Source of the DNA: Promethearchaeota archaeon
Lineage (GTDB): Archaea > Asgardarchaeota > Lokiarchaeia > Sigyniarchaeales > SOKP01
Reading direction: 5' to 3'
DNA length: 64,000 bases
NCBI GenBank assembly: GCA_030606485.1
Contig: JAUWGH010000008.1
Coordinates: 62,001-126,000, forward strand
Both the position numbers and the translations under genes were made by a program. Positions 42,333 through 48,150 of the stretch are shown piece by piece (within the stretch, counting starts at the first letter, position 1; each line of letters opens with the position of its first letter). The notes under the pieces were generated by a model. That model had not been told where the DNA came from. It saw only the letters and a list, made by a program, of their open reading frames with translations, and did no database searches.

Positions 42333-44261
42333 ATGTCTGAAATTCGCATTGGAGTATTTGTTTGCAGATGAGGAATAAATATTGCGGGGATATTAGATGT
42401 TCCAAAAATTGTCGATGAAATAGGTAAAATGGAGAATGTTTGGTCTTGGGAGTATTTAAATATATGTACAGATCCAGGAGCGACCTTTATTATTGAAAAG
42501 ATTAAAGATCTCGAGTTAGATCGGGTTGTAGTTTCAGCTTGAACACCAATAACACATCAACCGGTTTTTCATAGTGTCTTAGAGGATGCAGATTTACCAC
42601 CACGATTTCTTCAATTTGTTAATATTAGAGAACACTGCAGCTATGTCCATCAACAAGAACCAGAAATGGCTACACAAAAAGCGATTGAATTAATTAAGGC
42701 AGGCATTGCAAGAGCTGAGGTTTTAGAAGATATACCAACTAAAACAGTTCCAGTAGAGAAAGCAGCATTAGTAGTTGGTGGAGGAATAGCGGGATTGACA
42801 GCCAGTATTGATTTAGCAAATGAAGGGTTCAAGGTATACCTTGTTGAGAAAAAATCCACCACTGGTGGAAGAATGGCTCAATTGGATCGAACCTTTCCAA
42901 CCGATGATTGTTCCATATGAATTCTCGGACCTAAAATGTTGGCAGCCAATAGAAATCCAAATATTACGACAATGACAATGGCCGAAGTTTTAGAAGTGGA
43001 TGGCTATATTGGTAATTTTTCCGTTAAGGTGCGTAAGAATCCAAGATATGTTTACGAAGATATCTGTACTGGTTGTGGTGCATGTTCAGATGTATGTCCC
43101 ATATATATGCCAAATTATTTTGATGAAAATCTCTCGGCTAGAAAATGTATAGATGTAGCTTTTGCACAAGCAGTTCCTGCAGTTTGGGATCTTCAAACTG
43201 ATTGGTGTGTAGAATGTTACGCTTGTGTTGATTCTTGTGATGTTCATTGTATTGATTTAAGTCAAGAACCCGAAATTGTTGAATTTGAAGTAGGAACAAT
43301 TATTATTGCTACTGGTTGGGATATATATGAACCAGAAGAATATGGCTACGGAAAATATGATAATGTTATTACACAAATTCAACTTGAAAGAATTATCGCT
43401 CCGAATGGTCCAACTCTTGGACACTTAAAGCGGCCATCTGATGGAAAGAGACCAAAAAATATTTTGTTCATAAATTGTGTTGGGTCTAGAAATGAAGAGC
43501 ATCCATGGTGCAGTAATGTGTGTTGTTTATTGTCGATTAAAAATTCGAAATTAATCAAATCAGAATATCCAGATTCTAATATTGTAGTATCATATATCGA
43601 TATGAGATGTGCTGGAAAAGCATATGAAGAGTACTACAAACGCTCTAGAGACGCTGGAATCATGTTTATAAATGGGAAAGTGGGAACTTTACGAGAAAAT
43701 CCAGAAACAAAAAATCTCATTGCTACTATGGAGTCAATCGGAACTGGGGGTATTATTGAATATGAAGCCGATTTAGTGGTATTATCTTCGGCATCGCTAC
43801 CCTCAGCAGGTACAAATGAAATTGCAAATATTTTAAAGGTAGAAAAAAGTCCGAGTGGATTTTTAAAAGAATTCCACTCAAGACTTGATCCAATTGAGAC
43901 AAAAATAACTGGGATTTATATTTGTGGTTCGTGTCAAGGACAAAAAGATATCGGTGCAACTGTTAATCAAGCAAGAGGTGCAGCACAAGCTGCCTCAATC
44001 CCAATGACTGCTGGAGAATATACAATAGAATTAATTCGTGCACAAGCAAATGATGAACGTTGTGCCAAATGTTATAAATGTATTGAAACATGTCCTTATA
44101 GCGCTATATCAGTTGATGAAGCAGGGAAAATCGTAGTTGACCTTATTAATTGTAAAGGTTGTGGTATGTGTGCAGCAGTTTGTCCATCGATTGCTATAGA
44201 ATTACGTTATTATAGAGATTATCAATATAACGCAATTATTGATACATTATTTGAAGCGTAA
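42333..44261 (+). CDS. hdrA: Heterodisulfide reductase subunit A, selenoprotein with three in-frame UGA
   Basis: A 642-residue HdrA if three UGA codons are read as selenocysteine: U13 (42369-42371) in FVCRUGINI, U70 (42540-42542) in VVSAUTPITH, U196 (42918-42920) in DDCSIUILGPKM. Family cysteines occur at all three places. The FAD motif VVGGGIAGLTASIDLA is near residue 148, and the ferredoxin motifs are CTGCGACSDVC (245-255), CVECYACVDSC and, at the C-terminus, CAKCYKCIETC and CKGCGMCAAVC. HdrA carries the bifurcating flavin and passes electrons to ferredoxin and HdrBC. GGAGGT and AAGGTG lie before the ATG, and mvhD follows 18 bases after the stop. Without recoding the gene would break into fragments of 12 to 69 residues before the FAD domain. 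Confidence 0.93.
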
Positions 44262-44279: not shown

Positions 44280-44708
44280 ATGAGTTCTGATATAAAAATT
44301 GCGTCTTTTATGTGTTGGAAATGAGGGTATGGGGCGGGTGACATGGCGGGTACAATTCGAGCGCAATATCCGACTACAATTAGAGCAATATTAGTACCTT
44401 GCGCAGGAAGAGTTGGCTCTGAATTAATAATGAGAGCTATTGGTCAAGGTGCGGATGGTATTTTAATAGTTGGATGACACCCAGGTGAATGTGACTATGA
44501 AATCGGTAATAAACTGGCATACAGAGAAGTTGAATATATTAATCAAGTTCTAAATGTACTGGGTCTCTCAGATAAAAGAGTAAAGATGGAATATTGTAGT
44601 TCTGCAGAAGGGCAAAAATTTCAGCAAGTAGCAATTAATTTCGACAAGCTTATACGAAATCTTGGGAAAAATCCCCTTAATAAGAAAAGTTCCGACAAGA
44701 ATGAATAA
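44280..44708 (+). CDS. mvhD: MvhD/VhuD family electron-transfer subunit, selenoprotein with two in-frame UGA
   Basis: A 142-residue [2Fe-2S] protein that carries electrons from a hydrogenase or other donor to HdrA. It is not visible as one normal frame because UGA interrupts it twice: U15 (44322-44324) in MCWKUGYGAGD and U66 (44475-44477) in VGUHPGECDY. The family normally has Cys at both places (CxxC and GCHPGDC), which bind the cluster. The remaining sequence continues normally to AEGQKFQQVAINF. AGAGG precedes the ATG, and it is 18 bases after hdrA, so they are cotranscribed. No MvhA or MvhG hydrogenase genes are adjacent, so the electron donor is unknown. Confidence 0.92.
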
Positions 44709-44775
44709 TACGAGAAAATTTTAGTCGTGTTATGACTACCTGTTGCAGAGGTGTTGGAAATAAAAAGTTTTTTAA
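44709..44775 (+). ncRNA. Candidate SECIS element after mvhD
   Basis: Directly after the mvhD stop lies a foldable segment. TACCT (44737-44741) pairs with AGGTG (44749-44753) around the loop GTTGCAG. ATGA (44732-44735) stands opposite a TTGGA tract (44754-44758), like a kink-turn. Lower AAAATTTT (44715-44722) can pair with AAAAGTTTT (44763-44771). An alternative hairpin TAGTC/GACTA exists at 44722-44738. Archaeal SECIS elements normally lie in the 3' untranslated region, and both hdrA and mvhD need one. The exact fold is not settled by eye. Confidence 0.5.
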
Positions 44776-44889: not shown

Positions 44890-46017
44890 ATGGAGCCAAT
44901 GGAAGAATTACTGATAAAATATGATGATGTTAAGAGTATAATGGCAACGTTATTAAAAGAGAAAATAGTTTCTAAAATCATTAGTGGAGAAATTAAAAAA
45001 GGACATTTTAATGTATCCCCGAAATTGGTTTCAAAACTTGAAGAATTAGAAGATTTGCCACTTTCTCAACTCATTTCTTATGGTTATGCTCGAACCGATA
45101 GTGCATCTAAATTTTTACATAAAAATGCAAATGGCGCATTAGACGAAAAAGTTGGACTTATTGCTCGTCCTTGCGATACAAGAGCGATAATTGAACTTAT
45201 TAAATTACATCAAATCAATCCTGATAATTTATTTATTATTGCAATTGAAGATATGGGGATGATCCCGTCTTCAATGATTACAAGGATATTTAACAAAAGA
45301 AAGGAGTTTGATCAGAGTAAAATTATTCGGGATAAATTAACCGCTGAAAATCTTACCCTTATTTTAGATGGTGGGAGTTTAGAGGTTTTAGAGTTTAATG
45401 AAAATTTAAAAATAGCAGATAACTGTTTGAGATGCCTAAGAAAAGTTCCTGTTATGGGTGATTTATCGATAAGTGATATCGGAATCTCTGTAAAATCAGA
45501 TGATTTGATATTGCGTGTTTATTCTGAGAAGGGAAAGTCTGCTGTTGAGAAAGCTGGAATCAAAACCAGAAAAATTCCCGATGACCTAAAAAATCACAAT
45601 TCTGAAAGAGTAGAGACTATTTTAAAAAATGCTGAAGAAAAACGCACTAAAGATTTGGAAGAATGGAAAACTATGAATCAAGATGAAAAATTGGAAATGT
45701 TAAACAAATGCACTATGTGTGGTCTCTGCATTCGAGGTTGCCCCGTATGTTACTGCATTGATTGTATTTTAATGCAAAAACGAAAGGAAAAAACAATTAA
45801 TAATATTACATTTCAATTAACCCGCGTTGCACATGTCGCTGACAGATGTGTAGAATGTGGTAATTGTGCCAATAATTGTCCAATGAACTTACCATTATCT
45901 GAATACTTCCAATCATTAATTGAAACATTTAAAGAGAAATTTAATTATATTGCTGGAGAATCAGTTGATGATATTCCATTCCGTTCAGGAAAAGCAATTA
46001 AGGAAATGGAATTATAA
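44890..46017 (+). CDS. FrhB/FdhB-like iron-sulfur flavoprotein subunit
   Basis: About 375 residues from ATG 44890; the GTG at 44881 is an alternative. The N-terminal domain resembles the beta subunits of F420-reducing hydrogenase and formate dehydrogenase (IARPCDTRAIIELIKLHQ and IAIEDMGMIP). A C-terminal pair of ferredoxin motifs follows: CTMCGLCIRGCPVCYCIDC and CVECGNCANNCP. Such subunits bind FAD and connect F420, NAD(P)H or formate to Hdr. Its place after hdrA-mvhD (182 bases) suggests it supplies electrons to that module. The actual cofactor is unknown. Confidence 0.75.
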   Translation: MEPMEELLIKYDDVKSIMATLLKEKIVSKIISGEIKKGHFNVSPKLVSKLEELEDLPLSQLISYGYARTDSASKFLHKNANGALDEKVGLIARPCDTRAIIELIKLHQINPDNLFIIAIEDMGMIPSSMITRIFNKRKEFDQSKIIRDKLTAENLTLILDGGSLEVLEFNENLKIADNCLRCLRKVPVMGDLSISDIGISVKSDDLILRVYSEKGKSAVEKAGIKTRKIPDDLKNHNSERVETILKNAEEKRTKDLEEWKTMNQDEKLEMLNKCTMCGLCIRGCPVCYCIDCILMQKRKEKTINNITFQLTRVAHVADRCVECGNCANNCPMNLPLSEYFQSLIETFKEKFNYIAGESVDDIPFRSGKAIKEMEL

Positions 46018-46095
46018 AAACTGCATAAAAAAATGATTTTTTTATTAAATTCTTATCTATTATATATCCAGACAGTGAGATAAAGTTGCACCCTG

Positions 46096-48150
46096 ATGCT
46101 GGATGATGTTAAGATGATTACAAACAAAAGAATGATTAAGCATAAAATAATTGGTTTAACATTTATTTTTAGTGTTATTTTGTCTTCCTTTATTATTTTA
46201 AAATGTATTGATTTAAACAATAATTGTACCCGATATAATTCTACAAAGATTCTGACTTCTAATTCTAATAATTTTAACATATTGACATTTTGGGATCAAG
46301 AAATTGAACGCGTAAATAATACTTTATCAAATATTGAACTAGGAGAAAATTCTACTTTAAAATATACTAATCCTAATACAAAAGAAGAATATGATTTTAT
46401 TGTTCAAGAAATTCACTTTGATTCTCCAAATTGGGTCGATGCTACTCCCACAATTATAAAACTGCATGGATATCTTCTATACCCAGAAGAATTAAAAAAT
46501 AAAAATCCTGGATGTTTATGTATGCACGGTTTGGGTGGTAATGCTAACAAGTCTTTTGAGTTTGCTGCGCCTTATTTAGAAAATGGTTTTATGGTTTTAT
46601 GCCATTCTCATCCTGGGCATGGAAAATCCGAAGGGACAAACCCTACGCCAAATAATTTTTATTATGAAGGAGAATATAACAAATCATCACATCATTATTT
46701 GACTCTTTGCGGGGCTATTCAAGGGTTAAGAGTCTTGGAAAGTCTTAATCTTGTTAACAACTCAGAAATTATGGTTACTGGAAGTTCATATGGTGGATTA
46801 AATACCATGTATTTATCTGGTGTTTGTGGAGAGAGAATTGCGGGGGCAATACCATATATTGCTGTAGGTGATTATGAAAAGAATAATGAAGATCCTACGA
46901 AGCTTTTATTTTGGGTATGGAATAAAAATATTAATGAAATCCCTGATTCTTATTGGAATGAACAAAATCTAAGAACCGATCCAATATATTATTTAGCATC
47001 AGATAAGGTACCGCCAATTTTTTGGGAATTTGGCACTACAGATGAATTTTTTTATCATCATTGTATTATTAATACCTACGAAAAGGTTAATCATACTGAT
47101 AAATATCTTCAAATTCATCCTAATGGACACCATGGATTATTTGATTATGAAAATACGACAAAATTTTTTATTGATTATATTATTAGTAAGGGTTCAGCTC
47201 CTCCTAAAATTGATATTAAGGATCACATAAAAGGAAACAATATATTGGGTGATTATTTAGAAATTGAAGTGCATGTAGATTCGGATGTAAATATAGAATC
47301 AGTTCAAGTTGTATATAAATATCTTGATATTATAGGAACTTGTTGGGAAAAAGTTAATCTTGAAGAATCTGAAGAAGATATTTGGATAGGTATTTTAAAT
47401 CCAGGAGTTATTACATCAGATGTTGATTATTATATAATTGTTAATTTAGAAGGCGAAAATAATGTATGGTTCAGTTCGAAAATTTATACTGTAGGAAAAC
47501 TTATTAGTAATTTAACTATTCCATTTTATATTTTATTCATTGTTTTCATATCTTTTCCAGCAATTTTGTTAATTTGGAGGAGATATAAAAAAAATGTTAA
47601 AGAATTAGAGGAAAAATTTCAACGTGGAGCTAAAAAAAATTTAATCTTAGAAGTTTCTTTTTTGGGAATAACCGAAATGCTTTTTTTTATATCATTAATT
47701 TTACCAATAGCAGAATTTGGAAACAGTGGAGTATCATGGTCTTCAATATTTGTCTTTAACAAGTTATATACTTGGAAAGCGGTTTTTGGAAGTATGGCTC
47801 CATTTTTAACATCCATATTCCTTATTATATTTATATTATTTTTCCATATAAGCCTAATGAAACCAATAATTGCAGGTTTTTTCAAAATTGCTTATTTTTT
47901 ATACGCATTACTATTATATTCTGTCATTTCAGGTGTTATAGGGGGCTCGTCTGAGTTGGATAATTTTGGAATAATTAATTTAGGAATAGGCTTTTATTTA
48001 ATATTAATCGTGGCATTGATGTATATTAGTATAGGCGTTTGGAAACGATATTATCAAATAAATTTTAGAATAAGAGAACCTAAAAGGAAATTTTATAATA
48101 TTGACAGATGGTTTAGATTAAAAAGCTCAAGTAAGAAAAGGACTGATTAA
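46096..48150 (+). CDS. Secreted or membrane alpha/beta hydrolase with C-terminal membrane domain
   Basis: A 684-residue protein. An N-terminal hydrophobic helix (about 17-38) acts as signal or anchor. An alpha/beta-hydrolase domain follows: CMHGLGGNANKS for the oxyanion region, the nucleophile S231 in TGSSYGG, and a HHGLFD C-terminal His region near 355. After a beta-rich linker, about five hydrophobic segments (from ~470) form a membrane domain. It resembles dipeptidyl-peptidase or acetyl-esterase type hydrolases. Starts at 46096, 46114 or 46132 are all possible. Facing outside the cell is likely. Substrate is unknown. Confidence 0.7.
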   Translation: MLDDVKMITNKRMIKHKIIGLTFIFSVILSSFIILKCIDLNNNCTRYNSTKILTSNSNNFNILTFWDQEIERVNNTLSNIELGENSTLKYTNPNTKEEYDFIVQEIHFDSPNWVDATPTIIKLHGYLLYPEELKNKNPGCLCMHGLGGNANKSFEFAAPYLENGFMVLCHSHPGHGKSEGTNPTPNNFYYEGEYNKSSHHYLTLCGAIQGLRVLESLNLVNNSEIMVTGSSYGGLNTMYLSGVCGERIAGAIPYIAVGDYEKNNEDPTKLLFWVWNKNINEIPDSYWNEQNLRTDPIYYLASDKVPPIFWEFGTTDEFFYHHCIINTYEKVNHTDKYLQIHPNGHHGLFDYENTTKFFIDYIISKGSAPPKIDIKDHIKGNNILGDYLEIEVHVDSDVNIESVQVVYKYLDIIGTCWEKVNLEESEEDIWIGILNPGVITSDVDYYIIVNLEGENNVWFSSKIYTVGKLISNLTIPFYILFIVFISFPAILLIWRRYKKNVKELEEKFQRGAKKNLILEVSFLGITEMLFFISLILPIAEFGNSGVSWSSIFVFNKLYTWKAVFGSMAPFLTSIFLIIFILFFHISLMKPIIAGFFKIAYFLYALLLYSVISGVIGGSSELDNFGIINLGIGFYLILIVALMYISIGVWKRYYQINFRIREPKRKFYNIDRWFRLKSSSKKRTD

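Follow-up and report, generated by a model that had tools for sequence, protein, structure and literature searches.

One SECIS element with a predicted three-way-junction fold probably serves two selenoprotein genes and five UGA codons in an Asgard archaeon

All five UGA codons of the genes hdrA and mvhD of a Promethearchaeota archaeon are very probably decoded as selenocysteine (Sec) under the direction of a single SECIS element, which is located at the 3' end of their predicted common message and whose RNA is predicted to fold as a three-way junction. Both genes lie in the window, i.e., the whole stretch of 64,000 nucleotides that was analyzed. Comparison of sequences among relatives revealed the predicted structure of the element, its conservation, its place and the absence of rival elements, and one SECIS per hdrA-mvhD pair, which would act over up to 2.3-2.4 kb, is well supported.

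Results

Two neighboring genes contain five in-frame UGA codons

The gene hdrA (42333-44261, plus strand) has 642 codons with UGA at positions 42369, 42540, and 42918. The gene mvhD, also named frhD or vhuD (44280-44708, plus strand), has 142 codons with UGA at 44322 and 44475, and it ends with the stop codon TAA at 44706-44708. Both frames stay open only with UGA readthrough, at three codons of hdrA and two of mvhD. In profile searches the HdrA product matched an NCBIfam HdrA-type model, albeit below the curated cut-off, and the MvhD product matched PF02662 (FlpD) with an E value of 1.5e-39. Alignments revealed that the three UGA sites of hdrA are cysteine positions in three Cys-type hdrA paralogues of the same genome, and the two sites of mvhD are cysteine positions in its Cys-type mvhD paralogues L006 and L008. 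The genome has four hdrA copies with UGA (contigs C12, C1, C8, and C10), and an mvhD that contains two UGA codons lies 3' of each of them. The initial annotation had proposed two selenoprotein genes with five UGA codons, a spacing of 18 bases between the genes, and distances to the SECIS of up to about 2.3 kb. All three claims were borne out, and the distances between the UGA codons and the AUGA motif of the downstream SECIS are 2332, 2161, and 1783 nt for hdrA and 379 and 226 nt for mvhD. The gene 3' of the SECIS begins 184 nt after the mvhD stop codon and encodes an FrhB/FdhB-like Fe-S protein without UGA (44893-46017, plus strand; PF04432, E value 2e-8).

The host genome (3.75 Mb, completeness 100, contamination 4.65) encodes Sec machinery, i.e., tRNA-Sec, SepSecS, SelB/EFSec, and a selD gene that contains a single UGA. 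The tRNA-Sec scored 47.1 bits, barely above the gathering score of 47. Its gene (L140, contig C2, 189906-190018, minus strand) has a length of 113 nt, while the model has 91 positions, and it fits the intron-bearing lokiarchaeal tRNA-Sec that is named in a review (PMC9499178). The named relatives found via the mvhD search were all metagenome-assembled genomes labelled Lokiarchaeota or Lokiarchaeia.

The sequences of the host and of its relatives are largely draft metagenome assemblies, and the UGA codons might thus be ordinary stops or sequencing errors, with the structure after mvhD being a chance fold or a terminator hairpin. This is highly improbable, because the same UGA codons occur in many independent assemblies and at sites that are cysteine in paralogues, the genome encodes the Sec machinery, and no terminator-like site was listed at the element in the scan for such sites. 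A reading of the site as a terminator or a sigma-70 promoter was rejected; the promoter-like sites numbered 18, compared to 13.8 in shuffles (sd 3.5), and the sigma-70 model is unsuited to archaea.

The SECIS core spans the stop codon of mvhD

The core of the element was assigned to 44701-44735, and it starts 5 nt upstream of the mvhD stop codon, which it spans. It consists of AUGA as the 5' side of the SECIS quartet (44701-44704), the upper stem P2 with 9 bp and no mismatch, an apical loop of 11 nt, and GA as the 3' side of the quartet (44734-44735). The 5' strand of P2, AUAAUACGA (44705-44713), includes the UAA stop codon of mvhD, and the 3' strand is UCGUGUUAU (44725-44733). The A-rich apical loop between them, GAAAAUUUUAG (44714-44724), contains unpaired adenines. 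The side hairpin P3, ACCU-GUUGCAG-AGGU (44738-44752), lies 3' of the core. The basal stem P1 is formed by UUCCGAC (44690-44696), which is located inside mvhD, and GUUGGAA (44753-44759). All these parts are on the plus strand. The region 44700-44745 has a folding energy of -8.0 kcal/mol. The element did not match any of the Rfam SECIS families at the gathering score or up to an E value of 10.

The initial annotation had also recognized a structured element after mvhD, with an ATGA opposite a GGA tract, but had placed it at 44709-44775. The existence of a SECIS was confirmed, while its start and register had to be corrected. Both ATGA (44732-44735) and GGA are present; nevertheless, there is next to no chance that 44709-44775 is the SECIS. 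RNA folding yielded a z value of -0.49 for this stretch, and 62 of 200 shuffles were as good, whereas the stretch 44685-44765, which is shifted upstream, folded with -17.9 kcal/mol and a z value of -3.03, and 2 of 200 shuffles were as good. In addition, the alignments refute that this ATGA forms the quartet, as the relatives keep another register, in which it belongs to the 3' side of the core and of P2. The GGA facing it is part of the basal stem P1. In contrast, the proposal of a eukaryote-like element, putatively of the kink-turn type, gained support: AUGA and GA are invariant or nearly so in the alignment of the relatives, and their sequence is compatible with a kink-turn.

The element is conserved after mvhD in relatives

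A genome scan retained 80 loci out of 103 stretches encoding a relative, and together with eight loci of the host genome and the window they made up 89 records. The strict core pattern was found at the expected place in 72 of the 89 records, and it occurred only seven more times in the 1,270,044 bases of strand sequence that were scanned. Of these seven off-place matches, three (L009-L011) sit after another UGA-containing gene. Several of the records that were missed by the strict pattern carry a one-base bulge. The copy of the window, L001, was left out of all further counts. The Sec-type set comprised 83 records, with the Cys-type loci L003-L006 and L008 left out.

The elements split into two sequence groups. 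Covariance model R1 was trained with 13 sequences of group 2, which did not include the window, and model R2 with 37 sequences of group 1, and the searches with both models covered both strands. R1 detected 42 records at an E value of 1.6e-10 or better, all after mvhD, and the window was among them (44686-44765, E value 2.4e-11). R2 detected 38 records at an E value of 1.2e-16 or better, again after mvhD. Each of these loci had exactly one strong match. Weaker R1 matches at the same place were found for L083 (E value 9e-4), L007 (1.9e-3), and L073 (0.17). The element was thus present 3' of mvhD in 83 of 83 Sec-type records, in 80 cases as a strong and in three cases as a weaker match. The five Cys-type loci of the host genome had no convincing R1 match (best E value 0.48, on the minus strand). 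The rarity of the pattern at other places and the detection of the window by a model that had not been trained with it show that the element is more than chance.

The initial annotation had suggested covariation across related loci as a check, and this was positive for both groups. In group 1 (37 sequences) 95.7% of the cells were paired, and changes on both sides of a pair were found in 42 cells, compared to 7.0 in shuffles. In group 2 (40 distinct sequences) the respective values were 94.7% and 87, compared to 24.8 in shuffles. Alignment A5 was fitted to the structure model, and, therefore, its counts lean towards the model, while A1-A3 are plain alignments.

No further SECIS candidate was found for hdrA

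UGA was present at the DCSIUILGP site of hdrA in 78 of the 83 Sec-type records; the other five are four cut contigs and L053, for which no intact hdrA frame was found. The 69 full-length hdrA genes contain one (18 genes), two (40), three (10), or four (1) UGA codons, whereby the first ATG of the frame was taken as the start, and some N-terminal UGA codons may be missed or added. The gap between hdrA and mvhD was 10-43 nt in all 69 cases, and the farthest hdrA UGA was 1784-2407 nt upstream of the SECIS.

If hdrA had a SECIS of its own, in the coding region, the intergenic region, or the 5' UTR, the element after mvhD would serve mvhD only. There are precedents, as the SECIS directly follows the UGA in bacteria and, in one archaeal case, that of the M. 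jannaschii gene fdhA is located in the 5' UTR (PMC9499178). Nevertheless, this explanation is improbable. Neither R1 nor R2, which represent this SECIS type and are blind to a wholly different type of element in hdrA, had a match on the coding strand within hdrA, in the gap of 10-43 nt, or upstream of hdrA. The fold test covered the RNA directly 3' of the hdrA UGA codons and revealed no excess structure, i.e., no hairpin of the bacterial type; the mean z values were 0.10 (n=69) and 0.06 (n=34), compared to -0.08 in windows chosen at random from hdrA, while the SECIS reached -1.86. Furthermore, Sec-type hdrA and Sec-type mvhD go together in four of four cases in the host genome.

One SECIS for the two genes is therefore favored by the co-occurrence of the UGA codons, the short gaps, the lack of other matches, and the lack of structure after the hdrA UGA codons. 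The comparison thus supports the initial proposal that the element after mvhD serves both frames, and neither a lack of conserved structure nor a better SECIS within or before hdrA, each of which had been named as a potential refutation, was seen in the records examined. In the proposed mechanism, hdrA and mvhD would be cotranscribed, and an Asgard-type (eukaryote-like, type I) SECIS at the 3' end of the message would enable Sec recoding over 0.2 to 2.3 kb from a single element. The element would adopt a kink-turn geometry and would be recognized by a binding protein. The 5' part of the element includes the last codons and the stop codon of mvhD, and, therefore, a ribosome that completes mvhD would have to unfold it.

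The AUGA motif can overlap the stop codon

In 8 of the 83 records mvhD ends in frame with the UGA that is contained in AUGA (offset -1), and this UGA is likewise in frame in the vhuU-like gene of the host genome. Such an overlap is already known, as UGA stops have been reported to overlap AUGA often (Mariotti et al., as cited by Huang et al., PMC11227280). It is plausible that a ribosome that reaches the overlapping UGA has unfolded the element and, therefore, terminates. In L124-L127 of the Asgard family f6 the mvhD frame crosses the AUGA/GA arm and stops about 47 nt after the start of the SECIS. The stop codon lies at P3, and thus most of the SECIS is coding in these loci.

A third arm, P3, completes a three-way junction

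The parse into a three-way junction of P1, P2, and P3 worked in 81 of 81 elements; L006, L007, L008, and L073 were left out, and L003-L005 did not yield a candidate. In 79 cases no more than five of 100 shuffles were as good, the exceptions being L062 (10) and L079 (8). P3 follows the GA of the core, and the junction is closed by the basal stem P1. The P3 loop contains GC in 73 of 80 elements (the 81 without L083) and GU or GUG in the other seven. The P3 stems comprise 33 distinct sequences among the 81 elements. In group 2 changes on both sides were found for two of the three P3 pairs tested; in group 1 three of four pairs never vary and are thus uninformative.

P3 was also found in other Asgard families and in the selD and vhuU elements of the host genome. 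For 22 of 28 parsed elements, which include two other mvhD copies of the host genome, no more than three of 60 shuffles were as good. The test was not passed by L120, L123, L126, L127, L128, and L133, and no core was found by pattern in L108 and L122; P3 is visible by eye, though not by the test, in these six elements and in L122. The automatic and the visual assignment of P3 disagree for L111.

The methanococcal eaSECIS is also located at the 3' end of hdrA/vhuD-type genes, and one such element can serve two UGA codons of one gene (PMC9499178). It differs in its GAA_A bulge, which is located beneath a G+C upper stem. At P3 this bulge was detected in 22 of the 39 elements of group 1, but in none of the 42 elements of group 2, to which the element of the window belongs. 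An interpretation of P3 as a relict of the methanococcal GAA_A hairpin is therefore not general and was rejected.

In the Asgard SECIS literature covered P3 is not described; Mariotti et al. 2016 lies outside of that comparison. A literature search on SECIS and three-way junctions retrieved nothing on such an arm, and no mention was found in the text available of a 2026 review (PMC13188914). Thus, the third arm is possibly a new part of the element.

Further selenoprotein loci

Several other loci with UGA codons were observed. L009 (5356-5709, minus strand) encodes a protein of 117 aa with two adjacent UGA codons in the motif GCUUEKVKQR and has its own downstream SECIS with P3. The protein had no Pfam or NCBIfam match at an E value of 0.1, and relatives, among them L142, L143, L144, and L146, occur in 33 of the 41 family genomes and in most cases contain two TGA codons. 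It possibly represents a Sec-Sec selenoprotein family. A degraded remnant of this small protein (IYPDSEIKLHPDAG...), with stops, is located in the window at 46062-46142 (plus strand) and is the sole match in the host genome. The next example is L092 (1348-1508, contig C5 of the host genome), which encodes a split VhuU-like selenoprotein peptide (NCBIfam VhuU, E value 1.3e-13, below the curated cut-off). The peptide has one Sec UGA, the UGA that comes next in frame is part of the AUGA motif of the SECIS, and the core is the variant AUGA...AA. The last example is L099 (contig C1 of the host genome, about 2505-2590), where a longer SECIS with P1 and P3, which was read as type II, lies 3' of the selD gene with its single UGA.

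Discussion

The element was compared with the known SECIS types. The model of Huang et al. 2024 (PMC11227280) comprises a core 5'-GA_[G/A]A-3', an upper stem of 7-15 bp with at most two mismatches, an apical loop of 8-20 nt with adenine-rich first nucleotides, a location between 30 nt upstream and 600 nt downstream of the selenoprotein gene's 3' end, and a free energy below -5 kcal/mol. The core AUGA_GA as well as the stem, the loop, the start, and the folding energy given above all lie within these bounds. The element shares with the Asgard eSECIS-like type I of that study the AUGA/GA core, the upper stem, the A-rich apical loop, the location after frhD, and the probable service to both genes. 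For almost all neighboring hdrA and frhD genes of Asgard archaea, Huang et al. reported a common eSECIS-like structure, and, thus, the sharing of one eukaryote-like SECIS by hdrA and frhD is already published and not new. Their model is confined to the core, the upper stem, and the apical loop. They found the internal loop and the lower stem to lack highly conserved nucleotides, whereas this region contains P1 and the conserved hairpin P3 in the element described here.

The eukaryote-like SECIS of Lokiarchaeota has been credited to Mariotti et al. 2016 (PMC13188914, PMC9499178, PMC11881835), and, according to these citing texts, the core is eukaryote-like as well. It has been described with one apical loop (PMC9499178), in contrast to the two loops, of P2 and P3, found here. 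Eukaryotic type I SECIS elements have the same AUGA opposite GA below an upper stem and an A-rich apical loop, and act long-range from the 3' end; both the quartet and the apical-loop adenines are present in the element. The differences are the side hairpin P3 and the two genes on one predicted message. No homologue of SBP2 has been reported in archaea (PMC13188914, PMC9723677, PMC9499178), including Asgard archaea (PMC11227280, PMC9723677).

Two published observations stand against the proposed mechanism, as does the absence of a match to the Rfam families. First, at 2332 nt the distance is beyond the range of 70-1500 nt that a review gives for archaeal SECIS elements (PMC9499178); however, reporter work with Methanococcus argues against strict distance limits (PMC9622424). 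Second, a lokiarchaeal SECIS was reported to be without function in Methanococcus maripaludis (PMC11881835).

A further, rather doubtful idea concerns the function of the third arm. Asgard SECIS elements might generally be three-way junctions, in which P3 might be a constant second recognition site, either for docking on the AUGA/GA arm or for an archaeal SECIS-binding factor, and might let one element serve several UGA codons across more than 2 kb of a polycistronic message. If this were true, eukaryotic SECIS elements would have lost P3, and P3 could also explain the failure of the lokiarchaeal SECIS in Methanococcus. The identity of the archaeal SECIS-binding factor is described as open (PMC11881835), and P3 would offer a defined target for finding it. 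If one SECIS indeed serves two genes and five UGA codons, archaeal recoding would be less limited by distance than the range of 70-1500 nt (PMC9499178) implies. The element represents a clean model for the origin of the eukaryotic SECIS.
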